This document shows, piece by piece, positions 1-17,100 of a DNA stretch of 64,000 nucleotides (its first letter is position 1; every line of letters begins with the position of its first letter). The stretch is from Sorangium aterium (GTDB lineage: Bacteria; Myxococcota_A; Polyangia; Polyangiales; Polyangiaceae). A program made the translations under genes and the position numbers. The stretch covers positions 339,001-403,000 of the forward strand of contig NZ_JAQNDK010000006.1 in the NCBI RefSeq assembly GCF_028368935.1, written 5' to 3'. The notes under the pieces were generated by a model. The model did no database searches. It was not told the DNA's origin and saw only the letters and a list, made by a program, of their open reading frames with translations.

Positions 1-148
1 GGGGGTGAATCTCCGTCGAACACCCACCTTCGGAGACGTGGTATCGGGTCTTCGCGTGACTGTCGCGCGCGGACGTCGGCGGGGCTCGGCTGAGCCGCGC
101 CGATCCGCGAGCCGTGGTGTATGCTGCTCCGAGCGGTCGGAGGGCTGG

Positions 149-567
149 ATGATCCATCGACAGACGGGCGAGATCGAGCTCACATCCGGGCTTCGCATCG
201 GACCCTCGTACTCGGAAGCGCAGTTCTTGTCGTCGCCGCTCGCGCGGATGGCCAACGCCCTGAGCGAGACGCAGCCGTGGAGCGGATACCGGACGTCGCG
301 CCAGCGCATCGGCTTCCGGACCTTCCGCATCACGCTGCACTTCTGCAGCGGCAAGATCGCGTGGGTCGAGCTGTTCGAGGTCGGCGCCGAGTCGAAGGCG
401 TTCTGGAACGACTGGTCCGAGAAGGAGGAGGCGGAGCGCAAGGCAAGCCACGACGCCTGGCTGGCGTCGATCCCGGCGCGCCGCCGTACGAGTATCCCTG
501 GGGAAAGATCACCTCCCAGTACGACCCGCGGGGCGGCTACAGCAGCATCGTCGTGCGCTTCGGCTAG
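149..567 (+). pseudogene. Small hypothetical gene with a frameshift
   Basis: I do not recognise the product. The reading frame starting at the ATG at 149 (MIHRQTGEIEL...) runs well to about residue 108 (KASHDAWLASI). There the sensible protein moves to the next frame and continues as GAPPYEYPWGK..., ending at 567. Restoring one base near 473-477 joins the halves into a soluble protein of about 139 residues. Without it, the first frame runs on as low-complexity Arg/Ala text into the antisense of the next gene. The tail is rich in Tyr/Pro/Gly. This is either a recent one-base loss or a sequencing error. No signal peptide or membrane segment is visible, and it stands alone upstream of a convergent acetyltransferase gene. 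Confidence 0.55.
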
Positions 568-655
568 CGCCGGCGCGCTGGGGCCCAGGGCGTCGCTGGT
601 CGCTGGTCCGCGCGCCGGCGCCGCCCTCGGCGTGGCATCCGGCATCCGGGGCGCG

Positions 656-1189
656 CTACAGCGCTCGCCGGTAGCGGATCTCCGGGAGGCTGCCGGCGCC
701 GACCCGCGCCCACCGCCGCGCGCCGTCGCGGGTGAAGCCGGAGAGCTCGTAGAAGTGGCGCGCGCGGGTGTTCCCCTCGAGGACCCAGATCGTCATGGTC
801 CTGTGGCGGCGCCGGGCCAGGTCGGCCTGCGTCGTGTCGAGCAGCGCGGCGCCGAGCCCGCGCCCCCACGCGGCGGGCAGGAGGTAGATCGTGTAGAGCT
901 CGCCGACGTCACCTGGGCCGTCGTCGTCGCGCGTCGGCCCGGCGCTCGCGAAGCCGAGCCCGGCGCCCTCGGCGCAGAGCATCCAGGTCCGCGTCCCGGT
1001 CGCGGGGTCGCGGCTGAGGATGCGCTGCCAGCTCGCCTCGCGCGCCGGCACGGAGAGGGCGTTGAGATCGGCCGCCGGGATCAGGCCCAGGTAGGCCGCC
1101 TGCCAGGAGTCGACCTCGATGCGCGCGATGACGGCCGCGTCTGCCGGCTGCGCCCGGCGGATGACCGCCCCTGTGATCCGCTCTGACAT
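656..1189 (-). CDS. GNAT family N-acetyltransferase
   Basis: Probable acetyl-CoA-dependent N-acetyltransferase of 177 residues, the usual size for a single GNAT domain. The N-terminal part (IRRAQPADAAVIARIEVDSW) is the typical beta1-alpha1 opening. The acetyl-CoA pyrophosphate loop (motif A) is visible as WGRGLGAALLD in the middle of the chain, followed by a beta5/alpha4 region (ARHFYELSGF) typical of the family. I chose the ATG at 1189 (MSERITG) with an AGGTG-type site about ten bases upstream; the ATG at 1201 in the same frame would add four residues. The substrate cannot be told from sequence. It is monocistronic and convergent with the small gene at 149-567. Confidence 0.85.
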   Translation of the reverse strand: MSERITGAVIRRAQPADAAVIARIEVDSWQAAYLGLIPAADLNALSVPAREASWQRILSRDPATGTRTWMLCAEGAGLGFASAGPTRDDDGPGDVGELYTIYLLPAAWGRGLGAALLDTTQADLARRRHRTMTIWVLEGNTRARHFYELSGFTRDGARRWARVGAGSLPEIRYRRAL

Positions 1190-1393
1190 GGTGTCTCGCA
1201 CCTCAGCTTGGCTGGCGCCGCGGCGCTCCGCCAGGGCGCCGCCCGGCGCGCTCGCCGGCCGGAGGCGCGATCAAGCGGTGCCCGACGCCGCATTCATCAT
1301 GATGCTCCATCCCTCGCCGGCGATGGTCCCCTAAGGTCCTTTTGTGCGCTGTGACGCTACCGGGCGCTGCAAAAGGAACCGAAGGAGGGAACC

Positions 1394-1834
1394 ATGCTGT
1401 GCAAGGAGATCATGAAGCAAGACATCCAGAGCGTCCTGGCCGACGACACCATCCAGACGGCCGCGTGCAAGATGCGCGACGCGAACGTCGGCTTCCTTCC
1501 TGTCTGCGACAGCGCCGGGAGGGTGCTGGGGGCGCTGACGGACCGCGACCTCGCCATCCGGGTGCTGGCCCACAGCAGACCGCTGAGCACGAAGGCGGGC
1601 GACGTCATGACGCGCGGGGTGGTCGCGTGCCGGCCCGACGACGACGTGCAGCGCGCGGAGCAGCTGATGGGGCAGCACCACAAGTCGCGCGTCCTGTGCA
1701 CCGAGGCGGACGGCCGCCTGGTCGGCATCATCAGCCTGTCGGACATCGCGCAGAGCGAGGATGACAGGCACACCGCGCAGACCGTCCGCCGGGTGACCGA
1801 GCGGGAGGCGGTGCAGCACGAGAGCACGCGATAG
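1394..1834 (+). CDS. Tandem CBS-domain protein
   Basis: Protein of 146 residues consisting almost only of two CBS domains (about 5-60 and 68-125). Each has the typical pattern of a hydrophobic GxLxGxxTDRD-like strand: VLGALTDRDL in the first and LVGIISLSDI in the second. Such stand-alone Bateman modules bind adenine nucleotides (AMP, ATP, SAM) and act as energy or redox sensors. The partner is usually unknown. A strong GGAGG site lies about eight bases before the ATG. It has three Cys (CKE, ACK, VCD) in the first domain. It is monocistronic; the C-terminal 20 residues are polar and probably disordered. Confidence 0.88.
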   Translation: MLCKEIMKQDIQSVLADDTIQTAACKMRDANVGFLPVCDSAGRVLGALTDRDLAIRVLAHSRPLSTKAGDVMTRGVVACRPDDDVQRAEQLMGQHHKSRVLCTEADGRLVGIISLSDIAQSEDDRHTAQTVRRVTEREAVQHESTR

Positions 1835-2308
1835 GCTCGCCGGGCGATGGTCCGAGCTTCGCGGCGGCGCGCGGCGCGGGCGACGAACCCGCGACGTTCG
1901 CCCTCGCCCCGCGCATCGCCCGCCGCGGCGGCCGCGCGCGCCGCGGCGACCGAGCGTGTCGCGGCGCCGGCGCGCCTCGCGGCGCCTTCACCCCGGCGCT
2001 CCGCCGCCGATCGCGCCTCGAGCACCGGCGACTCGTGCAGCACGAGCGCCGAGAGCAGCGAGGCCCACCTCGTTCCCGCTCATCCTCGAGGCCAACCCGG
2101 TCGTCCAGGGTCGTCTAGAACGGCAGCCTCATGTCGGCGCGTGGATTGCGCCTGCGGGGCGATGTTTGCCCGGCCGGCCGTCGATGGCTGCCGCGAGCGC
2201 CCCCGACGCCCGAGTCGCCCTGGCCGCTGCTGCCCTGCATTTCGAGCGAGCACAGCCCGCTGCACCGGTCGCCTGCCATCCGCGGGTGTTATTCGCTGGA
2301 GGGGACCG
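1835..2308. other. Gene-free stretch with low-complexity sequence and a gene fragment
   Basis: No convincing gene is visible here. Open frames on both strands are rich in Arg/Ala and look like GC-driven shadows. The only recognisable content is a fragment at 2016-2067 that matches the 16S rRNA methyltransferase gene at 8946-8997 (listed separately). Confidence 0.6.
2016..2067 (-). pseudogene. Fragment of a KamB/NpmA-type methyltransferase gene
   Basis: Fifty-two bases match positions 8946-8997, inside the 16S rRNA methyltransferase gene, with four differences by my count. On the minus strand it reads WASLLSALVLHESPVLEA against WASLLSALVLPEAPVIEA in the intact gene. The similarity fades on both sides, so this is a decayed partial copy of this gene or a relative, not a functional gene. 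Confidence 0.6.
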
Positions 2309-2902
2309 TCAATGATTGACCGTGATCGAAGGATCCCATTGGTAGTATCCTTTCACCGGCCGAGCACCTTCCCCGTCCGGCAGCGGGCCGTACACCACGA
2401 ACCTCACCATGAACCACTCCGTGCCGTAGTTGTTGACGTCGATCTCGGCGCAGTTGACGTCTATCGATCTGGCCGAAACCTTGGGCGGCTCGTGGTTGTC
2501 CTGCCCATCCTGCGGCACATTCACAATCTTGGGGAACGACCGGTATCTCATCCCGTCCGTGCTCAGGACGCCGACTGTGCTGGTCTGGCCCTCCGGATCC
2601 CAGTGCACGAAGTCGTAGATGAAGACCTCCTCCTCGACCTGGTGGCTCATGGAGCTCGCCCAGATCCGGAGCGTGTCGCCGGTCGCTGCCTGCAGGTTCA
2701 GATCGGCGGTCCCATTGCCGCCCACAGCGTGTTTCGCGTCAGTGATCATGAACGCGTAACGATGGTCGCACCCCGCCGGGTTATCGGGCGTCGAGCTTGG
2801 CTCGCTGGAGAGCGAGATTGTGTCGACGACGATCGTGAGATCGACCGTCTCGGTAGCATCCTTGTTGATGTCATCAGAATGATTGCGCACTGGGTCCTCC
2901 AT
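2309..2902 (-). CDS. AidA/PixA-type inclusion body protein (copy 1)
   Basis: Protein of 197 residues resembling the PixA/AidA family, soluble proteins that form cytoplasmic inclusions in Xenorhabdus and are quorum-controlled in some beta-proteobacteria. Their biochemical function is unknown. Family-like marks are the N-terminal strand (VDLTIVVDTISL), a central YDFVHWDPEG segment and the C-terminal YYQWDPSITV. The other copy at 7793-8392 ends in NYWFDPSITI. There is no signal peptide. Compared with copy 2, the N-terminus carries about 20 extra polar residues (MEDPVRNHSDDINKD). The gene lies downstream of the tyrosinase on the same strand, 212 bases away, and probably belongs to the same accessory cluster. 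Confidence 0.72.
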   Translation of the reverse strand: MEDPVRNHSDDINKDATETVDLTIVVDTISLSSEPSSTPDNPAGCDHRYAFMITDAKHAVGGNGTADLNLQAATGDTLRIWASSMSHQVEEEVFIYDFVHWDPEGQTSTVGVLSTDGMRYRSFPKIVNVPQDGQDNHEPPKVSARSIDVNCAEIDVNNYGTEWFMVRFVVYGPLPDGEGARPVKGYYQWDPSITVNH

Positions 2903-3114
2903 GCATGTTCGATTCTCGCGAACCCGAGATCCCGCGCCGCGCTGCCTGCCGGCCCCGGGTTGAGACTCCCGGCGGGCGGCCAGGACAGCGCCATCGTCGA
3001 GCCGTGAGCGCGCCCTCGCCGTCGCGCCGCGGGCGGGCTATCACCGACGCGGGGGCGCCGCGGATTGACGCCGGCGCGGGCGCCCATCCTCACCATGAGC
3101 GCCGGCGCCGACCG

Positions 3115-4743
3115 TCAGCCGCGGATCTTGAGAACGGTCTTCAAGCCGGCAGGGAGCACCGACCCGCGATGGTGAACCTTCACGGTGAAGATCGCGCGAT
3201 CGACCTCGTCCTCCGGCATGTTCTTCAGGGAGAAGTGGGCGATGACCTCGAGGTGAGTGCGGCAGTTCGCGCAGTTGCTCACGCTATAACGGCTCAAGAC
3301 AGAGTGGTAGCCCAGGTAGTATTCCTTGGTCTTGCCGCCGTCGCTCGCCACGGTCGCGTGCGCCGTCAGCAGGAACGACCCCTGGAACAGGGCGCGATCG
3401 ATGCCCCTCACCATGAGCTTCTTGGCGCTGAACCCGGGCTTTACCGCTGCCGCGCGGGCCTGGTCATTGAGCGATAGATCGTCGAATGAGCCTGGCCCAT
3501 AGGTGTAGCCGAGCTGGTTCTCGATGTCCACGCAGTCCGTGCTGACGTAGGGCTTGCTCGTGAGCGGGCTCTTGAACGGTTTGAGCGCGGTTCCATCGAG
3601 GGTCAGCTGAGCGCCGGGCGGGACGCCGGGGGTCGGCCCTTGCAGGTCGTTCGAGCTGGTGCCCGGGTAGTCTGTCATGTCGTCGGAGACCTCCAGCGTC
3701 GTGGTTTGGCCATGCAGCTTCTGCCAGAGCCAGAACATGCGGTCGATGTTGCAGTGGTGAAAGAAGAAGATCGGATCGAAGGAGGACGTGTTGTTCTCTC
3801 CCATGTCCCCGTTCGAGCCGCTGACCAGCCCCGTGCCACCAGGAGCTATCTGCGGCGCGTCGAACCCGCCGACGGCCAGGTGGAGGTCGTTGTGGGGCTC
3901 CTCCAGCGCTACCACCATGGGCTGATGGGGTGGGATATCCGCGTTCCAGGCGGCCGCCGAGGTCGTATTGGAGAAGACCGTGTAGTTCGGCGCGAATAGA
4001 CACCCCCTGTACGATGCGTAGAGGTTGGCGCCCTCGGGAGGAGGTGGAACCGTGGGCTCGGGGCCGTTCAACCAGGCCATGATGTTGTTGTTGAGCAGCG
4101 TGTCGTTCGTGTTCTGGTCGGGATACTTCTGGTTGTGGGCGTACGTCAGCTCGGAGTCCCCGAAGTTGCCCACCAGCCCTGAGAGCGGGTACCGCACGGT
4201 CGTGTAGCCGGCCCGCTTGTAGTACGGGTGCGCCTCGTCGGCATTTGCGTTCTGGTCCCCCCAGTAGTTGTCGGAGACCGAGATGGGCAGGGTGAACGAC
4301 CGCAGCGGGTTGGGGATACCCATCAGGCCGTAGCTCGGGAGGTCGACCGTCGGCTGGGTAAAAATGGCCGGGACGCCCTGATGGAGAGAATAGTCGTCCG
4401 TCTCGTCCCAGAAAGGCAGCATCACGCCCGGTACGATGGTTTGCAGCGCCTTTTCCATGCAGTAAAGGTATGCTCTGTGCCAGGTCGGGAACAGGATGTT
4501 GCCGTGGTTGCAGTACCCTCCCCAGTAGGCGTATGTATCCTCCGGCGGCAGTCGATCGACCGCGCGTCGCAGCAGGAAAGGCTCTCCGTGGAGGCCCCCC
4601 AAGGCGAAGAACGAGTTCCATTCACGCGGGTCGAGCCGCTGGATGCCCCTCCAGGCATAGAGCACGTCTTCAAGGGGTTTCGTGTTTCCCTTGGCGTATT
4701 CTTGCTGGAGGACATAGATGGACTGCCGTATCCCTGTGGTCAT
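3115..4743 (-). CDS. Tyrosinase / polyphenol oxidase family protein
   Basis: Type-3 binuclear copper oxidase of 542 residues, predicted to hydroxylate monophenols and/or oxidise diphenols to quinones. CuA ligands are H52 (GGLHGEP), H80 (YCNHGN) and H89 (FPTWHR), with the expected H-x8-H spacing between the last two. CuB shows H284 and H288 (HNDLH) and H329/H330 (FFFHHCNIDR). The LHGEP and YCNHGN forms resemble the plant/hemocyanin-like group more than the short Streptomyces type. A C-terminal beta-rich domain of about 170 residues follows the CuB site and may act as a lid or shield; this is an inference. No signal peptide is seen, so it is likely cytoplasmic. It sits in a cluster with PixA-type proteins and a decarboxylase. 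Confidence 0.9.
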   Translation of the reverse strand: MTTGIRQSIYVLQQEYAKGNTKPLEDVLYAWRGIQRLDPREWNSFFALGGLHGEPFLLRRAVDRLPPEDTYAYWGGYCNHGNILFPTWHRAYLYCMEKALQTIVPGVMLPFWDETDDYSLHQGVPAIFTQPTVDLPSYGLMGIPNPLRSFTLPISVSDNYWGDQNANADEAHPYYKRAGYTTVRYPLSGLVGNFGDSELTYAHNQKYPDQNTNDTLLNNNIMAWLNGPEPTVPPPPEGANLYASYRGCLFAPNYTVFSNTTSAAAWNADIPPHQPMVVALEEPHNDLHLAVGGFDAPQIAPGGTGLVSGSNGDMGENNTSSFDPIFFFHHCNIDRMFWLWQKLHGQTTTLEVSDDMTDYPGTSSNDLQGPTPGVPPGAQLTLDGTALKPFKSPLTSKPYVSTDCVDIENQLGYTYGPGSFDDLSLNDQARAAAVKPGFSAKKLMVRGIDRALFQGSFLLTAHATVASDGGKTKEYYLGYHSVLSRYSVSNCANCRTHLEVIAHFSLKNMPEDEVDRAIFTVKVHHRGSVLPAGLKTVLKIRG

Positions 4744-4824
4744 GTCAGCGCCTTTTCTTCTGTCAGAGCGAGCCTAATCTGTACGGTATCGGAGCGGCGC
4801 GGGGCTCTCCGCGCGCTCCGTGCC

Positions 4825-5355
4825 TCACGGCGGCGAAGGCAGCGACGAGCCCTGCGCTCCCTCCGCCGCACGATCTCGTGAGGGGGACGGCCCCTTCGTC
4901 CGGGAGGCGAGGCGTACGCTCCAGAGCGAGGCGCCGATGAGGAGCAGAGCGCCCGCGTAGAGGAGAGGCGGCGCGTCGAGCCAGAACTTGCCCCCGAGCA
5001 CGGCCGACGCGCCGGCGAGGCCTGCGAGCATGGGGCGGTAGTCCTGGCTCGCCAGTGCGCGCAGCACGAGCGCGCCGAGCGCGAAGGCGAGCAGCCCGGC
5101 GCCGAGCGGCAGCCCCCATGCGTCGCGCAGCCAGGCGCTGGCGCCGAGCGAGCCCAAGATCCCGAGATAGGCCGCCACGCACAAAGGGCACTTCGGGAGC
5201 AGCACCAGCGCGATGGCCGGTAAGAGCGGGAGGTGCTGGCCGGCGCGCCTGGCCAGCGTGGAGGCGCCGGACGAGCGCGGCGAAGGGGCAGCGCGCCCGC
5301 AGGTGCACCCCGGGGGCGAGGAATCCGTGAGGCTCGGTGTCTCCTTGATCGCCAT
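4825..5355 (-). CDS. Small membrane protein with CPLC motif (MerC-like)
   Basis: Protein of 176 residues with a polar, Cys-containing N-terminus (PPGCTCGRAAP) and about four hydrophobic segments between residues 40 and 150. The first membrane segment carries a KCPLC motif (LLPKCPLCVAAYLGILG), like the paired cysteines of MerC-type mercury/metal transport proteins. Overall similarity to MerC is only by motif and topology, so metal handling is a guess. Given the copper tyrosinase next door, a copper role is conceivable. The C-terminal 25 residues are polar. It lies on the same strand as its neighbours: 81 bases separate it from the tyrosinase and 237 from the decarboxylase-like gene. Confidence 0.6.
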   Translation of the reverse strand: MAIKETPSLTDSSPPGCTCGRAAPSPRSSGASTLARRAGQHLPLLPAIALVLLPKCPLCVAAYLGILGSLGASAWLRDAWGLPLGAGLLAFALGALVLRALASQDYRPMLAGLAGASAVLGGKFWLDAPPLLYAGALLLIGASLWSVRLASRTKGPSPSRDRAAEGAQGSSLPSPP

Positions 5356-5592
5356 CGTGGGTCTCCCGGTGGTGCTTCGCGGATGGTCCGGCGTCGCGGG
5401 GCGGCCTTCCGGTGCGAGTCGAGCGCGAGGGCTTCGCCGTGCGCTGCGGCGCGTCCCGCAAAGCGCAAAGAACGTGCTCAGACGCCCTCGACCTTCGAGG
5501 TCCTGCTCGACAGCCCCGAAGCCGCCCTGGGGCCGCGCCGGAGTTCGTTTGTCTCACGTGTGCCGTCGTGAGAGCGCAGCCCCCCAGACTCC

Positions 5593-6792
5593 TCAGGTCC
5601 TTGGGAATGCCTCGGGGATGGATGGCGTGCCCAGAGCGCCAAGGCGGCTCCCCATCAGGACCGAAACGGCGTTGAACACGCCTTTCTGGAAGAGCAGGAT
5701 GTTCAGAGAGCCGCCGTACGCGAAGTGCCCGAGCTCGTCGCCCTTCTTGACCGGGACCGGCTCGCCTCCGACCGGGACCAGGGTCGACCGGTTGTTGACG
5801 AGCGACGGGTACATCGCGCTGATCGTGTTCAGGCCGACCGGGATGACGGCGATGTACCCGTGCTTTTCGGTCTTGATGACGAAGTAGGAGCGATGAAAGT
5901 CCTCGAAGATGCTGAAGTCCGTCGTGCTCTCGCCGACGTTGAAGATGGTGTTGAACCAGTGATCCCCGTCCATGATGCCATTGTAGATTCCAGGCACCTC
6001 CACCCCCTCGACGATCCGGCCGGAGGCAGGAGCGTGGTAGCGATGGTAGTTGGGGGGCATGAGGACGCAGGAGACGGCCGTGCCGCCCTCGAACTTCGCT
6101 GCGTACTTCGACCCGTTCAGGAGCTGCGTGATGTTGAGCTGACGTGACTTCACGTCGAGCTTCTTCGTGAGCGTGAGGTCCGAGAGGATGAAGTTGATCT
6201 CCGAGTCGGCGGACGCCACGAGCACCGAACCGTCGTCAGGCGCCGCGATGGGCCGGGGATTCCTCGCGGGGTTGAGCCTGCGCGTGAAGAACTCGTTGAA
6301 GGACTTGAAGCCACCCTCGGGGACGATGAAGTCCTCGATGTGAGTCCCGGGATCCTTCAGCCAGGCCTCGATGAACTTGAGCGACTCCGGAGAGTCCATG
6401 AACCGCCCCCGCTCCTTGATGAATTTGACGGTCCAGTTGAAGATCTCGGTCGTGTACTCGTCGCTCGTCGTGCGGCTCTTGAACGTGTTCAGGAAGGCGA
6501 ACGCGGACTTGTTGTCGAGGTAGAAGTAGGTGAAAGGTACGATCTTCCCCAGGCCTCCCGTGGGCTCGGGCAGAAAGGTGAACCACTGCTCGAAGTAGCG
6601 CACGAAGTACTCGGCGGTCGCTCCGACCCACGGGTTCTTCGAGCCGTCCTCCACGAAGGGCTTCACGTGCGCGACGGCCTCGTTGAACGCGGCCTCGACC
6701 ACGGGGTTGGCCATGAGGCGCTTGAGCTCGTCGATCAATTGACGCATCGCGGGCGTGAGCGGAATCTGCTGATTGGTCTGCTGGATCGCCAT
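5593..6792 (-). CDS. Phosphatidylserine decarboxylase-like enzyme (PsiD-like group)
   Basis: Protein of 399 residues of the pyruvoyl-dependent phosphatidylserine decarboxylase superfamily. The catalytic domain shows FNEFFTRRL, the YHRYHAPASGRI block and, near the C-terminus, the self-cleavage site YGGSLNILLF with the pyruvoyl-forming serine at about residue 362. It carries a long soluble N-terminal region (about 1-150) with no membrane anchor. This layout, and the GGS-type site, resemble the amino-acid-decarboxylating PSD relatives such as fungal PsiD (L-tryptophan decarboxylase) more than housekeeping Psd. Substrate is therefore uncertain: a free aromatic amino acid or a phospholipid. Adjacent to a tyrosinase and a c-heme protein gene, it may feed a small aromatic-amine pathway (inference). 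Confidence 0.8.
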   Translation of the reverse strand: MAIQQTNQQIPLTPAMRQLIDELKRLMANPVVEAAFNEAVAHVKPFVEDGSKNPWVGATAEYFVRYFEQWFTFLPEPTGGLGKIVPFTYFYLDNKSAFAFLNTFKSRTTSDEYTTEIFNWTVKFIKERGRFMDSPESLKFIEAWLKDPGTHIEDFIVPEGGFKSFNEFFTRRLNPARNPRPIAAPDDGSVLVASADSEINFILSDLTLTKKLDVKSRQLNITQLLNGSKYAAKFEGGTAVSCVLMPPNYHRYHAPASGRIVEGVEVPGIYNGIMDGDHWFNTIFNVGESTTDFSIFEDFHRSYFVIKTEKHGYIAVIPVGLNTISAMYPSLVNNRSTLVPVGGEPVPVKKGDELGHFAYGGSLNILLFQKGVFNAVSVLMGSRLGALGTPSIPEAFPRT

Positions 6793-6826
6793 GGCTGGCT
6801 CCTTGGGAACGTTATCGAGGTTGGAC

Positions 6827-7792
6827 TCAGTGTTTGCGACTGGAGCGATGGAGATACCCCCCGGGGAAGACCGCCTTCTGCGGCTGTCCGGTCTTGATCG
6901 TGGGAGGGCGGATCGTCCCCGGCGCGAGGAGGGCGAAGTACCCCTGAGCGTCAGCCAGCGACAGCGACGACATCGGCACGTCCGGGGTGAAGAGCTCGCA
7001 ACCCCCCTTGCTGGCGTTATAAGCGATGCAAGCCTTCGCCTCGCACTGGTGTCTACAGTAGTCGAGGCACTTGTCGGTCGAGGGGTCGATCAAGGAGTCG
7101 GTCAAGGACGCACACACCTGCCCGGAGCCTGGTACGGGCGTGGCGCTGGCCTTGCTCGACGAGACCCTCAACCCTTGGAGGTCGGCATACGGCGGCTGGA
7201 GCGTATCCGGTGCCACACCCGGCTTGCCGTTGCCGAAGTCGAGAAGGAAGCTGAAATCAGTCCCGAACGCGGTCTGCGCGACGCCGTGGCATCCCTTGCA
7301 GCCTCCCATGTCGTACGTTGTTTTGTTGTACACGGTGTTGTCGCAGTTCCCGAACGTGTTGCCGCCGAAGCCTGGGCCGCTGAAGTTGTTGAGGAACGGG
7401 TCCGTCTCGACGAACAGATTGGCCATGTAGTAATTGGCATTATCCTGCAGGCACTTGGCCGCGCTGCCGTCCTGCGCGCTGATGCAGGCCAGCCCTGCGG
7501 CCATTTTTGTGGCATCCGAGTCGGTGGGGTTCGCCTTCGGGGGAGGGGCGCCGGTGATCTCGCAGTCGGTCACGTCGGCCTGCACGCCGATGAGCTGGTA
7601 GTTCGCCCAGACAGAGCTGAAGCCTTGCAGCTGCTGGCGCATGAGATCGTTCACCTTCCGGATATCCCCGGGGATCGCGTGGTTCTTGGTGCGATCCGTA
7701 TTGGGATCAGGGCTCTGCCGCGCCGCGGGCGTCGGCGCCGCGCCTGCGTACCAGGTCTGCGCGGTGAACCCCCAGGAATAGAAGAGAACAAC
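6827..7792 (-). pseudogene. 5'-truncated c-type heme protein
   Basis: The minus frame encodes about 320 codons ending at 6827. It has a conserved-looking WANYQLIGVQ segment and a class-I heme motif CKGCH (GGCKGCHGVAQTAFGTDFSF), followed by a Cys-rich segment (CLDYCRHQCEAKACIAY). Related proteins in this kind of genome are exported heme proteins. No signal peptide or good start codon precedes the recognisable part: the first candidates are an in-frame GTG and the ATG at 7642, both inside or after the homologous region. The frame simply runs into the antisense of the PixA-like gene at 7793. I infer that the 5' end was lost when that gene arrived. It could still be expressed from an internal start. 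Confidence 0.55.
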
Positions 7793-8392
7793 ATGACAAT
7801 GCACATCATTTTTCTGATCGATAGCAATGCTCTCAAGCAGAATCCTGGAGGCCAGTTTGGCAATCCCCAGAATTATCCTGGGCCGCACCCTCCTCTCAAG
7901 TACGGGAGAGGAAACGACCCCAATACCTACACCAACCAGAGCGGGGACACTCCCGTGACTGTGTACTTCAACGAGGAGGTCCTCATCTCCGTCCAGGACT
8001 CGAACTCCAACATCGGCGTGGCTTGCGCCCCGGTGGGTTTCGTCGCAATGACCTGGCAGTCCAATCCGATTACCCTCGATGACCTCACCGGCGGGGATGC
8101 GGTTATCGGAGACATCAGCTTCCGGGACACTCGCGTCAACTCGTATGGTTATGACTATGTCACCGGTTCGAACTCTCCGTGGGCGCCGGAGAATGACAAC
8201 ACCAATTACCTGGTCACCCGCCACGACGCGAGCCTGACTTCGCCCGTGAAGCGCAACCCGTACATCCTCGTTCCGGCGCTCGCCACCGCGGGCGTGCTGC
8301 AGTACGGCCTCGAGTTCTATTGCTCGATCGGCGGAGAGTATATCGGTAACTACTGGTTCGATCCCTCGATCACGATCGCAGCACCGCAGTGA
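7793..8392 (+). CDS. AidA/PixA-type inclusion body protein (copy 2)
   Basis: Protein of 199 residues, PixA-like: N-terminal strand MTMHIIFLIDSNAL, a Tyr/Asn/Pro-rich loop, YFNEEVLISVQDSNSN and the C-terminal NYWFDPSITIAAPQ. It shares topology and the terminal W-x-DPSI motif with the copy at 2309-2902 but little else, so the two are old paralogues or were acquired separately. Base composition is less GC-rich than its surroundings (many AAT/TAT codons), which suggests transfer. It is oriented against the rest of the cluster, and its start abuts the broken 5' end of the heme-protein gene. The role is unknown; family members accumulate as cytoplasmic inclusions. Confidence 0.72.
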   Translation: MTMHIIFLIDSNALKQNPGGQFGNPQNYPGPHPPLKYGRGNDPNTYTNQSGDTPVTVYFNEEVLISVQDSNSNIGVACAPVGFVAMTWQSNPITLDDLTGGDAVIGDISFRDTRVNSYGYDYVTGSNSPWAPENDNTNYLVTRHDASLTSPVKRNPYILVPALATAGVLQYGLEFYCSIGGEYIGNYWFDPSITIAAPQ

Positions 8393-8439
8393 CCACGGGC
8401 GCCGGCGTCAGCCGGGCCGCCCGAGGACGCCTCTTGCTT

Positions 8440-8667
8440 CTTGTCGGACCTGACCAGGATCGACGACGAGGCGACGCGCGAAGCCGCTGCGCGCGTTCTA
8501 CTTCGATGGATCACCGGAGCTCGGGCCGGTGGTCCACATCGACCACCAAGGCGCCAACCTGAGCTCCGGCGGGTACGGCGACTCGATGGGGGCAGATGCG
8601 CACCAGCTCGTTCATCGAGCGCAGGCGGCTGCTCCGCGAGTTCGAGCCGGTGAACGGCTGCCGGTGC
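8440..8667 (+). pseudogene. Gene remnant of unknown identity
   Basis: One frame gives a plausible protein piece (LRAFYFDGSPELGPVVHID... ending GGYGDS). The next frame then continues sensibly with WGQMRTSSFIERRRLLREFE and PVNGCR. A one-base shift at about 8588 joins them. No start or upstream domain is present. I read this as the decayed 3' end of a gene; the family is not recognised. Confidence 0.35.
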
Positions 8668-9315
8668 TCAGCCTATCGCCTCGGCCGTGAGCAGGCGCGT
8701 CCTCCGGCCCGACGCGAGCGTGAGGTGCTGTCCCCAGCTGGTCTGGTGCGGCATATCCCCCTCGACGAGCTCGCTCGTCCGGATCTCGAAGCCCGCGGCG
8801 CGGTAGGCGGGGCGCAGCGTGTCGTCGACCCACGCTTCCGAGAGCTCGGGGAGCCCGAGCCGCGCCGCGTAGGGCCGGTCGTCGAAGACGCTCTGGTTGA
8901 GCAGCGCGATGAGCTCTCCGCCCGGCCGGACGAGCTGGCGCAGCGCCTCGATCACCGGCGCCTCGGGCAGCACGAGGGCCGAGAGCAGCGAGGCCCAGGG
9001 GAAATTGAGCGTGAGGGTGTGGGCGAGCCCGGTGAGCTCCGCCGGCAGCGCTTGCACGGACGCGACGACGAAGAGCGCGTTCGGCCGGCCGCCTCGGGCG
9101 ACCTTGCGGCTGGCGCGCCACGACACCTCGCGCATCCGCTCCCCCGCGGGATCGACGCCGATGCAGTACGTGTCGGGGTGGGCGCCGGCCGAGCGGTACA
9201 CGAAGCGGCCGTCGCCCGTACCGACGTCGATGAGGACGCGCGCGTGGCCGGCGAGCTTCGCCTCGAGGTCCGCGCGCGTCCACGTGAGGGACGTCTTGCC
9301 GAGCTGCACGATCAT
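8668..9315 (-). CDS. 16S rRNA (adenine-1408-N1)-methyltransferase-like protein (KamB/NpmA family)
   Basis: SAM-dependent methyltransferase of 215 residues matching the KamB/NpmA family, which methylates A1408 in the decoding site and gives kanamycin/apramycin-type aminoglycoside resistance. Visible marks: the SAM loop D30-VGTGDGRF, the conserved CIGVDPAGERMREVS block, W107 in NFPWASLL and W194 in TSWGQHL. These two tryptophans correspond to the pair that sandwiches the target base in NpmA. The start (ATG at 9315) opens directly with the usual family N-terminus. A Sorangium member of this family is known, and some members are catalytically weak, so resistance cannot be assumed. It lies 35 bases downstream of the aminopeptidase gene on the same strand and is likely co-transcribed with it. 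Confidence 0.85.
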   Translation of the reverse strand: MIVQLGKTSLTWTRADLEAKLAGHARVLIDVGTGDGRFVYRSAGAHPDTYCIGVDPAGERMREVSWRASRKVARGGRPNALFVVASVQALPAELTGLAHTLTLNFPWASLLSALVLPEAPVIEALRQLVRPGGELIALLNQSVFDDRPYAARLGLPELSEAWVDDTLRPAYRAAGFEIRTSELVEGDMPHQTSWGQHLTLASGRRTRLLTAEAIG

Positions 9316-12108: not shown

Positions 12109-12182
12109 CCGACCCAGGTTGGAGGTTGGGCACCGACCCAGGTTGGGGAGCCGACCCAGGTTGGGGAGCCGACCCAGGTTGG
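12109..12182. repeat. Four copies of a 14-bp motif
   Basis: CCGACCCAGGTTGG occurs at 12109, 12133, 12151 and 12169. The last three are spaced exactly 18 bp apart with an intervening GGAG or GGCA. The array begins 142 bases upstream of the aminopeptidase start and does not encode a credible peptide. Confidence 0.85.
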
Positions 12183-12227
12183 GGCACCGACGCCGCGGGC
12201 GGCCTCTGGAGGGAGCGGAAGTCCTGG

Positions 12228-12433: not shown

Positions 12434-12440
12434 GGGGTCC

Positions 12441-12608
12441 GGACCCCTCCAGACCGCAATGCAGAGCGTTGGCCGGGGTGCCGGACCCCTCCAGACCGCA
12501 ATGCAGAGCGTTGGCCGGCGCGCCGGACCCCTCCCGGGACGCAGTGCAGAGCGCAAGCGGGGGTGCGGACCCCGCCGGGCGCAATGCCGCGCGCAGGGAG
12601 CGCGGTGC
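12441..12608. repeat. 42-bp tandem repeat, four decaying copies
   Basis: Units starting GGACCCCTCC at 12441, 12483 and 12525 and GGACCCCGCC at 12567 have a period of exactly 42 bp. The first two are nearly identical; the third and fourth are progressively diverged. A partial unit (GGACCCCTC) is also seen near 12316. The period is divisible by three but no conserved peptide frame is apparent. There are no unique spacers, so it is not a CRISPR array. It lies about 150 bases upstream of the Uma2 gene. Confidence 0.85.
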
Positions 12609-14177: not shown

Positions 14178-17100
14178 GAGGAGGGGTCAGGAGGAGGTGG
14201 AAGCTCACCCAGGCCGCTAGCCTCCCAGATTTGCTTCAGGGTTGCCTGCTCGGTGGCGGGGGCACGGTCGTAGATGCGTCGGAATATCGACAGAGCCTTG
14301 CCAGCATTTTCAGGGTCGTGGCACATGGCGAACGTCTGGATGGACCTTATCAGCCATCGACCGGCCTCCTGAAAGCTGCTCTGGAGACCCGCAATGATCC
14401 CGAGTTGGCCATAGGTGCTCGCCGCACCGTGCTCGTTGCCCTGCTTCTCCTCGATCGCGAGCGACTTGCGATACCATCCCTCGGCCGCCGCAAAGTCCCG
14501 GCGCTCCTGCGCGACGATCCCGAGATGGTGATATGTGCTCGCCGCACCGTGCTCGTCGCCGTGCTTCTCGAAGATAGCGAGCGACTTGCGATACCATCCC
14601 TCGGCCGCCGCAAAGTCCCGGCGCTCCTCCGCGACCATCCCGAGATGGTGACATGTGCTCGCCGCATGGTGCTCGTTGTCGTGCTTCTCCTTGATCGCGA
14701 GCGACTTGCGATACCATCCCTCGGCCGCCGCAAAGTCCCGGCGCTCCTCCGCGACGATCCCGAGCTGGTGATACGTGCTCGCCGCGCGGTGCTCGTCACC
14801 GTGCTTCTCTTTGATCGCGAGCGACTTGCGATACCATCCCTCGGCCGCCGCAAAGTCCCGGCGCTCCTGCGCGACGATCCCGAGATGGTGATATGTGCCC
14901 GCCGCACCGTGCTCGTTGCCGTGCTTCTCGAAGATGGCGAGCGACTTGCGATACCATCCCTCGGCCGCCGCAAAGTCCCGGTGCTCCTCCGCGATGGTCC
15001 CGAGCTGGTGATATGTGCCCGCCGCACCGTGCTCGTCGCCCAGCTTCTCGAAGATGGCGAGCGACTTGCGATACCATCCCTCGGCCGCCGCAAAGTCCCG
15101 GCGCTCCTGCGCGACCATCCCGAGCTGGTGATACGCCACCGCTTCGCCCGCACTGTGTCCGGAATCTCTATGAAGCTCTGCGAGCCGCTGGAAGAGCTGC
15201 TCGGCCTCCGCGAAGCTTCGCGCATTTCGTGCATACGCTGCAAGGCTTTGCGTCAGGGCCGCCTGATCTGCAATCGTACCAAGTCGCTCTGCTTCCACCA
15301 AGGCGCTATAGAAATTGACGGAATGGACATGGAAGGTCACACGCTGCTCATGCAGCTCCAGAGGAGCCAGCGCATCAGCCAGCCTGCCCATCACCTCCAC
15401 GAAGGCGCGGCGCCATCCGTCGCGTGACGGATCGGCCATCGTGGACGCCGCTCCCGATCGCAAGAACCCGGTGAGCGCCGGATGCATCTCATACGCTGCC
15501 TGTCCGACGTCGCGGAGCAGCCCCGCGTGGACCAGCGTGCCGAGGAACATGTCGATCCGCTCCCTCGTCCAGGCAACATCCACCCGCAACGCCATGGCGG
15601 CGAGGTAGTCGCCGTCCACGTACCGCTCATGCAGCCCGAGCGGGAAGAGGAGGGGCCTCAGGTCCTCCGGCAATCCTGCCTCCACGAACCGCAGCGTGGC
15701 GTGGAGCTTCTTCAACGCCTCGTCCCCTCCCTCCCCCAGCGCCGCCAGGTTCGATCGGAGCGCCTTGGCGATCTCCCCGGCTCTCGCTCCCTCGAGCCGC
15801 GGCAGGATCGCCCGCATCGCGAGCGGATGCCCTCCGAGCAGGTCCATCAGCGCGACCAGATCCTTGTCCGTCCGGTCGACCGAGATCCCAAGATCCGCCA
15901 GGATGGCCTCGCAGTAAGCCCACCGCTCCTCCCCGTGCAGCCCGCCGATCGAGATCTTCCGCCGCTGCTCCGGCCCCAACCACGCCTCCTCGCTCCGGCT
16001 CGTGATCAGCACCTTGGTCGGCGCCCCGCGGAGCCGCTGCAGGAATGATCGCAGATGCTGCCGATCGCCCTCCGACATCGTGGACGTGGTCGGGGACTCC
16101 GGAGAGCCGGCGACCACCTCGAAGTTATCCCACACGAGGAGGAAGCGGTGCTTCTTGTAAAACCGGACCAGCGCCTCGATCTTCTGCTCCATGTCGCGCA
16201 AGGCAAGGAACGCGTCGCCAAGGACAGGTCCGCCAAGCTGGTTGAATACATACTCGGCGCTCCGGATGTCATGGAACGAGAGCCAGCGGCACTCGTCGTC
16301 GCCGAGCCCCTCGGTCGCGTTGAGCCATGCGACAAGGCCGCGCGCCAGCGTCGTCTTGCCGACCCCGCCCAGCCCGTGGATCACGATGGCCGGCGCCGGA
16401 CGCCGGAGCGCGCGCTCGAGCTCGAGGAGCGCCCCGTCGCGCCCGATGAACCCATACGGGTTCTCTCTTTCGATCGCCTCCTCGGGGAGGCGCCTCGGCG
16501 CCGATGCCGGCGGCTGGGCCGCCGCAGCGAAGGCCAGCGCTTCGGTGTCCTGCTGGTAGACGACCGGCACGAGCCAGTCCTCGAGGTCGAATCGCCCGCA
16601 CGCGCAGACGCGCCCCCGAGCGGAGAACATCTGCTGGCGCCCGGCGCGGGCGGCTTCGACGAACGTGCCCGTCTCGAACAGCCGCCGGTAGAACGCGGGG
16701 AGGAATTGCTCTGCCCCGCTCACGTACAGCGAGTAGGACATCGCCACCACGCTGCGCGTCCCCGCGTTGATCAGCGCGGTCGCCACGGACGCGAACCGAT
16801 GCTCCGCCTTCTCATCCAGCTTCGCGGACTGGCATGCGTTCAGGACCATCGCCGGGACGTGGTGCTCCTGGAGCAGGTTGCTGAGCACCTCCGCCGTGAC
16901 CGGCGCCTGCTTCCCGTGATCGTCCTCGAAGATCAGCCGCCCCTCCGGCGCTCCGTAGGTGTGCGGGCCCGTCGGCGCCTCCCGAGGGCCATAGGACCCG
17001 TGCCCATCGAAGTGCACAACATGGTAGTGGTTGGGCCGCTCCCGCAGGTGCTCCCGGAGCCGATCCAGCGTCGGCGGCCGGAGCACATGCACGCGCGCCG

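Follow-up and report, generated by a model that had tools for sequence, protein, structure and literature searches.

Gene content and genomic context

The window analysed in this study is a stretch of 64,000 nucleotides (C6:339001-403000 of G000) from the 13.47-Mb genome of Sorangium aterium, with a G+C content of 70.5%. It contains a cluster of genes encoding a PixA/AidA family protein (PixA1), a tyrosinase, a MerC-like membrane protein, a predicted decarboxylase with the fold of phosphatidylserine decarboxylase (PSD; the product is referred to as the PSD-like enzyme), the remnant of a heme protein, and a 199-aa protein (Table 1). In the downstream direction of the minus strand, the order is heme remnant, PSD-like gene, MerC-like gene, tyrosinase gene, and PixA1 gene; the gene for the 199-aa protein is oriented oppositely.

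Table 1. Features of the gene cluster (positions refer to the window)
Feature	Position	Strand	Basis of assignment
PixA1, PixA/AidA family protein	2309..2902	-	PF12306
Type-3 copper tyrosinase, 542 aa	3115..4743	-	PF00264; 5zrd match
MerC-like membrane protein	4825..5355	-	weak MerC match; homologue upstream of tyrosinase in G002
Predicted PSD-fold (pyruvoyl-type) decarboxylase, 399 aa	5593..6792	-	PF02666, relatives, tree, fold match
5'-truncated c-type heme protein remnant (CKGCHG)	6827..~7705	-	alignment to ~600-aa relatives
199-aa protein, possibly divergent PixA-like	7793..8392	+	weak PixA similarity, C-terminus
Genus-variable stretch containing the cluster	1812..8660		flanks conserved in G002

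The genes for the tyrosinase, the PSD-like enzyme, PixA1, the heme remnant, and the 199-aa protein showed G+C contents of 58-63% and third-position G+C values of 0.76-0.90 versus 69-75% and 0.94-0.96, respectively, in the flanking genes; the MerC-like gene differed from these five in having 74% G+C. In the same-genus genome G002, both flanks (window positions 74-1811 and from 8658 on) were retained with approximately 2.35 kb of other DNA between them, and the cluster was absent. Homology of genomes G001 and G003 to the window started at 8667-8671, and no full-length PSD-like gene was found in the other genomes of the genus examined. The absence of the cluster from this site in relatives, together with its deviating G+C content, marks the site as variable and points to a probable gain by lateral transfer. 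A MerC-like/tyrosinase gene pair is present at another place in G002; thus, the parts of the cluster may have different histories.

A 55-bp stretch flanks the cluster on both sides in the same orientation (2013-2067 and 8943-8997, 93% identical). The right copy is located within genus-conserved sequence, and the left copy may be an insertion scar. At the same variable site, another species of the genus (G001) contains an ORF (L137, 10014-11003) that appeared transposase-like by eye; this may therefore be a hotspot of insertion. Near an aminopeptidase gene, the window carries a 120-bp tandem repeat (14389-15133, 6.2 copies, 90% matches) and shorter arrays with 42-bp and 18-bp units (12434-12587 and 12123-12191, respectively).

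The tyrosinase

The tyrosinase matched PF00264 with 147 bits (curated cut-off 22.6, E=1e-42). An initial annotation made from the sequence had proposed a binuclear-copper tyrosinase with six histidine ligands; in agreement, H52, H80, H89, H284, H288, and H330 were invariant in an alignment with three relatives. The protein matched a solved tyrosinase (PDB 5zrd) over its full length (residues 5-537, 624 bits, 56% identity) with the same copper ligands; we take this structure to be the Burkholderia thailandensis tyrosinase (BtTYR) of Son et al. 2018, a study cited in PMC11609597. The C-terminal region contains a CxxC pair (CANC) within a conserved CANC-x-THLE motif. His284 is followed by Asn285, and an asparagine after this histidine is a feature linked to monophenolase activity. 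Bacterial tyrosinases are usually taken for melanin enzymes that act on tyrosine or other phenols.

Amino acid sequence identities of 48-58% were found to the tyrosinases of Nitrospira (L030), Adonisia (L033), Burkholderia pyrrocinia (L112), and G002 (L154), with 48-53% for the window-clade enzymes of Nitrospira and Adonisia. This tyrosinase clade was detected in 1 of 349 sampled Myxococcota; because the sample is thin within genera and G002 has a tyrosinase of the clade, this count does not mean that the rest of the genus lacks it. The genome of the window encodes a further, distant member of the tyrosinase family elsewhere (G000:C2:831298-832110).

Family assignment and distribution of the PSD-like enzyme

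The PSD-like enzyme matched PF02666 with 115 bits (cut-off 22, E=4e-33) and carries an N-terminal region of approximately 150 amino acids ahead of the PSD domain. The catalytic residues shared with PSD, i.e. the Asp (D196), the HxxH motif (H250 and H253), and the GS cleavage residues (G361-S362), were invariant in 20 relatives, with the GGS site at positions 360-362. The initial description as a PSD-fold enzyme with a long N-terminus and a GGS site was thereby corroborated.

A scan covering the genomes of 84,980 species revealed eight close matches with 61-73% identity, followed by a drop to approximately 40%; close full-length relatives shared 64-71% identity. The hosts were Nitrospira, Aquiflexum, a Saprospiraceae bacterium, Adonisia, Formosa, a Flavobacteriaceae bacterium, Arcicella, and Anammoxibacter (partial gene). 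A further member was found in G942 (Bacteroidota), giving ten known members including that of the window. The clade is rare, with a frequency in the sampled phyla of roughly one genome in 150-380: it was detected in 1 of 292 cyanobacteria (the phylum of Adonisia) and 1 of 148 Nitrospirota, in both cases the seed genome only, in 2 of 395 Bacteroidota (the phylum of Aquiflexum; seed included, high-score level), and in 1 of 377 Myxococcota.

In a tree of 92 rows, the PSD-like clade (25 rows, support 99/96) was separated from housekeeping and other short bacterial PSDs as well as from the pair of PsiD/PF12588 sequences. A housekeeping-type short PSD is encoded elsewhere in the same genome and fell into a different clade; the assignment of the PSD-like enzyme itself as a housekeeping phosphatidylserine decarboxylase was rejected on the basis of this separation.

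The neighbourhoods of the clade with approximately 40% identity contained methyltransferase genes and unrelated genes, and no shared partner was found in them. A Desulfobulbaceae genome encodes two PSD-like genes in tandem (L045, 9902-11137 and 11173-12477). A distant relative on plasmid pUPC1 of Enterobacter cancerogenus (L111, 11878-13161) is a PF12588-type, PsiD-like decarboxylase (PF12588, E=1e-49); its gene directly follows one for a basic amino acid/polyamine antiporter and is located among aspartate/lysine decarboxylase genes and evgA. From this gene order, the two look like an unrecognised pyruvoyl decarboxylase-antiporter pair for acid stress.

Predicted structure and comparison with PsiD

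A model of the PSD-like enzyme was generated with AlphaFold2 from 20 sequences (mean pLDDT 78, weaker at residues 272-297). It was similar to the A. oryzae arginine decarboxylase (Z 22.4, approximately 300 residues, both domains) and to the fungal L-tryptophan decarboxylase PsiD (Z 21.4-21.9), with 298-302 residues from position 14-16 to 360 aligned to these two enzymes; the difference in Z between them (≤1) was counted as a tie. In contrast, only one domain was aligned to E. coli PSD (Z 14.9-15.3, 210-221 residues). A Foldseek search with the model likewise matched PsiD and the Aspergillus arginine decarboxylase. Like the solved structures of PsiD (PDB 8x4q, 8zia) and of the arginine decarboxylase (9jer, 9jf5), the model shows a two-domain PSD fold with a soluble N-terminal domain and a GGS site, at 18-23% identity in the structural alignment.

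The resemblance to the PsiD group that had been proposed initially was therefore retained at the level of the fold, including the N-terminal domain of the PsiD/PSDC group, but not at that of the sequence. No match to PF12588 was obtained in a Pfam search at E≤1, and the cleavage-site sequence YGGSLN contains GGSL rather than GGSS, the signature of fungal tryptophan decarboxylases (PMC6121855). The PSD-like enzyme further differs from PsiD by its separate clade, its bacterial origin, and its partial linkage to tyrosinases. According to the model, its N-terminal part matches that of free amino acid decarboxylases even though it is missed by PF12588. The predicted match of both domains to such enzymes, together with the separate housekeeping-type PSD, favours a soluble substrate. 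Aromatic specificity is not readable from the fold because the nearest solved relatives act on Trp and Arg; PsiD itself was reported to be inactive with Phe, Tyr, and 5-HTP (PMC6121855).

Association of the PSD-like gene with copper oxidase genes

A window-clade tyrosinase gene was found beside the PSD-like gene in 3 of the 10 known members, in two of them together with a multicopper oxidase gene. The gene orders were PSD-like/MerC-like/tyrosinase in the window, multicopper oxidase/PSD-like/tyrosinase in Nitrospira (L030), and tyrosinase/PSD-like/multicopper oxidase in Adonisia (L033). In the latter two genomes, the paired tyrosinase was the sole PF00264 gene found. Given one to two tyrosinases per multi-megabase genome, we estimate the probability of adjacency by chance to be of the order of one in a thousand in each case.

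The three tyrosinase-paired PSD-like enzymes formed one clade (99/89 in the 92-row tree), and thus the pairing may have a single origin. Partners seem to have been exchanged and brought together again, as the gene orders differ and a tyrosinase tree of a small sample joined Nitrospira to Burkholderia pyrrocinia (96/100). The BtTYR-related gene of the latter differs from that of the window in having neither a PSD-like nor a MerC-like neighbour; a small protein of 143 amino acids is encoded after it. That the pair persisted or formed anew despite these exchanges is suggestive of a joint role of the PSD-like enzyme and the tyrosinase. The link between decarboxylase and tyrosinase, as proposed initially, is thus supported by gene neighbourhoods; the lack of co-occurrence elsewhere that the initial annotation had named as a refutation was not observed for this pair.

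The tyrosinase is not a general partner: of the eight other core genomes with a PSD-like enzyme that were searched, six lack PF00264 altogether, which argues that the chemistry of the enzyme does not depend on a tyrosinase. No PF00264 gene was found in any of the five Bacteroidota genomes in this test. In Aquiflexum, Formosa, and the Flavobacteriaceae bacterium, an adenylate cyclase gene is followed by the gene for a 585-aa protein of no known family and then by the PSD-like gene. This order is repeated in G942, and the Arcicella protein is a fusion of the 585-aa protein with the PSD-like enzyme (members of the 585-aa family: L036 8189-11152; L031 8177-9934; L034 8194-9948; L035 8213-9967; L122 9474-11237). 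Lacking PF00264 and having another partner, the Bacteroidota indicate that the PSD-like enzyme is not tied to a tyrosinase everywhere. The upstream adenylate cyclase carries a 7TMR-DISM domain. The structural model of the 585-aa protein was unusable (pLDDT 42), and no relation of this protein to LodA was detectable.

The MerC-like protein and a family of small proteins

The membrane protein with a Cys pair noted in the initial annotation was confirmed. It contains a Cys-rich N-terminus (CTC) and a KCPLC pair, and its match to MerC (PF03203) was weak, with 20.1 bits below Pfam's threshold of 27.6 (E=0.001). A homologue with 58-64% identity is encoded directly upstream of the tyrosinase in G002 (L154), and another was found among several multicopper-oxidase-like matches in G154:C122 (L157). 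A role in copper handling fits the multicopper-oxidase-like neighbours in G154; on the basis of gene context, the MerC-like protein would most likely supply copper to the tyrosinase.

Tyrosinases of Burkholderia (L112), rhizobia (L146, L147), and G002 (L154) are accompanied by a protein of approximately 143 amino acids for which there is no Pfam model (L112 11693-12124; L146 5998-6414; L147 5998-6390; L154 9634-10062). The gene orders were multicopper oxidase/tyrosinase/LodA/small protein/FAD oxidoreductase in Rhizobium, multicopper oxidase/small protein/tyrosinase in Sinorhizobium, and small protein/MerC-like/tyrosinase in G002. In the Saprospiraceae bacterium, two genes of this family (L032, 5742-6299 and 6336-6674) lie downstream of the PSD-like gene. 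A profile search of all ORFs of the window detected no member of this family.

For lodA operons, an association of a small gene with tyrosinase and multicopper oxidase genes has been reported, with no decarboxylase mentioned (PMC4417212). Tyrosinase and multicopper oxidase are recurrent partners in the alphaproteobacterial operons of group ID, which comprise genes for tyrosinase, multicopper oxidase, LodA/GoxA, the small protein, and LodB (PMC4417212). The small protein of these operons is also encoded beside the tyrosinase in G002 and beside the PSD-like gene in the Saprospiraceae bacterium; the window differs from them in lacking LodA, LodB, the small gene, and a multicopper oxidase. Judged from gene order, the PSD-like enzyme is joined to this known copper oxidase neighbourhood by two separate routes, as it adjoins tyrosinase and multicopper oxidase genes directly and the small protein in the Saprospiraceae bacterium. 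A cluster of a PSD-family decarboxylase and a tyrosinase was not described in the literature searched, which covered few subscription journals. While operons with tyrosinase, multicopper oxidase, and small gene are already known, the decarboxylase looks like an undescribed partner.

PixA1, the 199-aa protein, and the heme protein remnant

The initial annotation had assigned two inclusion-body proteins of the PixA type to the same cluster as the enzymes. PixA1 is a member of this family (PF12306, E=2e-18, 67 bits versus a cut-off of 21; PDB matches 4q52/4pib), but the second assignment did not hold to the same degree. The 199-aa protein gave no Pfam match at E≤5, no match to PHROGs or NCBIfam, and no plasmid homologue; only its last 17 residues aligned to the PixA profile (hhalign probability 20.6%, score 28.3 versus ≤20.0 in 40 shuffles). 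On this similarity, it may at best be a divergent PixA-like protein. Among 349 sampled Myxococcota, PF12306 was detected only in the genome of the window itself, and the nine further genomes that carry a member of the PSD-like clade lacked the family. In no other genome examined was a PixA/AidA family gene linked to a PSD-like or tyrosinase locus. The cluster proposed initially was accordingly recovered in part: the PSD-like/tyrosinase pair (in Nitrospira and Adonisia) and the MerC-like/tyrosinase pair recur elsewhere, but PixA was never found with them.

The heme protein, correctly recognised as a fragment, aligned to residues 420-580 of a 603-aa protein from Tistrella (L125) and to residues 516-605 of a 622-aa protein from Paracoccus (L126). 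Full relatives comprise approximately 600 amino acids with a signal-peptide-like start, so that approximately 400 N-terminal residues including the signal peptide are missing; this part was not found in the window. Searches of Pfam, NCBIfam, and PHROGs with the remnant gave no match, and only the heme motif could be aligned to a CMSCHG protein of the Saprospiraceae bacterium (L032). The cut end of the heme gene abuts the start of the gene for the 199-aa protein, which suggests that the arrival of the latter, or a rearrangement with it, truncated the heme gene. From the distribution and state of these genes, PixA1, the 199-aa protein, and the heme remnant do not seem to belong to the decarboxylase-tyrosinase system and are regarded as its neighbours.

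Discussion

We consider it about an even chance (probability approximately 0.5) that the PSD-like, MerC-like, and tyrosinase genes form a laterally acquired phenol-oxidising operon, in which a pyruvoyl-dependent decarboxylase of free amino acids would lead to amine-derived quinones or melanin. The PSD-like protein would most likely cleave itself between Gly361 and Ser362 to give the pyruvoyl group and, as PsiD does, decarboxylate a free, soluble substrate of the amino acid type rather than phosphatidylserine. The tyrosinase, with copper most likely brought in by the MerC-like protein, would hydroxylate and oxidise a phenol to the o-quinone. Acting together, the two enzymes could convert tyrosine or DOPA to amine-derived quinones of the tyramine or dopamine type, which may either form a melanin-like polymer or serve as reactive quinones; the route from amino acid via amine to quinone or melanin is suggested by the tyrosinase partner.

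A broader view would be that a PLP-independent pyruvoyl lineage, distinct from PSD and PsiD, is a dedicated partner of tyrosinases and multicopper oxidases, makes amine-derived (dopamine-type) melanin or quinones, and has been transferred among Myxococcota, Nitrospirota, Cyanobacteriota, and Bacteroidota. We consider this less likely than not. The PSD-like/tyrosinase pair is known from three genomes only, whose PSD-like enzymes share one ancestor.

Possible, but in our view rather doubtful, is a free amino acid decarboxylase with a non-aromatic substrate, such as arginine or another polar amino acid, whose amine product reacts with, or is cross-linked by, the quinones of the tyrosinase. The solved neighbour with the highest Z is an arginine decarboxylase, most genomes with the PSD-like enzyme have no tyrosinase, and the Rhizobium operon with the small protein includes the amino acid oxidase LodA/GoxA, so that amino acid chemistry beside a tyrosinase need not be aromatic. 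However, the Z values of PsiD and the arginine enzyme are tied, and the operon in the window contains neither a transporter nor another amine-handling gene.

We regard as unlikely that the enzyme acts on phosphatidylserine or a related phospholipid and adjoins the tyrosinase gene with no joint function. PS_Dcarbxylase is its sole curated Pfam family, and its catalytic residues are those of PSD; this is countered by the separate housekeeping-type PSD in the same genome, the match of both domains to free amino acid decarboxylases, and the repeated occurrence of its gene near those for copper oxidases in three phyla.

Less probable still would be the modification of a peptide or protein to carry quinone or decarboxylated side chains, a reading modelled on the LodB-dependent maturation in tyrosinase-LodA operons. 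The Rhizobium genes comprise LodA (a CTQ quinoprotein), an FAD oxidoreductase at the position of LodB, and the small protein, which also adjoins the PSD-like gene in the Saprospiraceae bacterium, but no precursor peptide, LodA, or LodB was recognised in the operon of the window, from which the small protein is absent. Finally, the storage of products in inclusions that had been proposed initially, with PixA1, the second PixA-like protein, and the heme protein as parts of one aromatic amine system, accounts for the location of all genes within 6 kb and the lowered G+C content in five of six but is highly improbable, since the nine other genomes of the PSD-like clade have no PixA, the heme gene has lost its 5' part including the signal peptide, and the 199-aa protein is encoded on the opposite strand and not recognised as PixA.

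The PSD-like enzymes represent a bacterial lineage outside PSD and the fungal PsiD that is labelled phosphatidylserine decarboxylase in family databases. The decarboxylase and the tyrosinase constitute a directly testable pair in three unrelated hosts. If the decarboxylase is indeed a conserved partner, some bacterial tyrosinases would work with amines, and bacteria would possess a PLP-free route to such amines.
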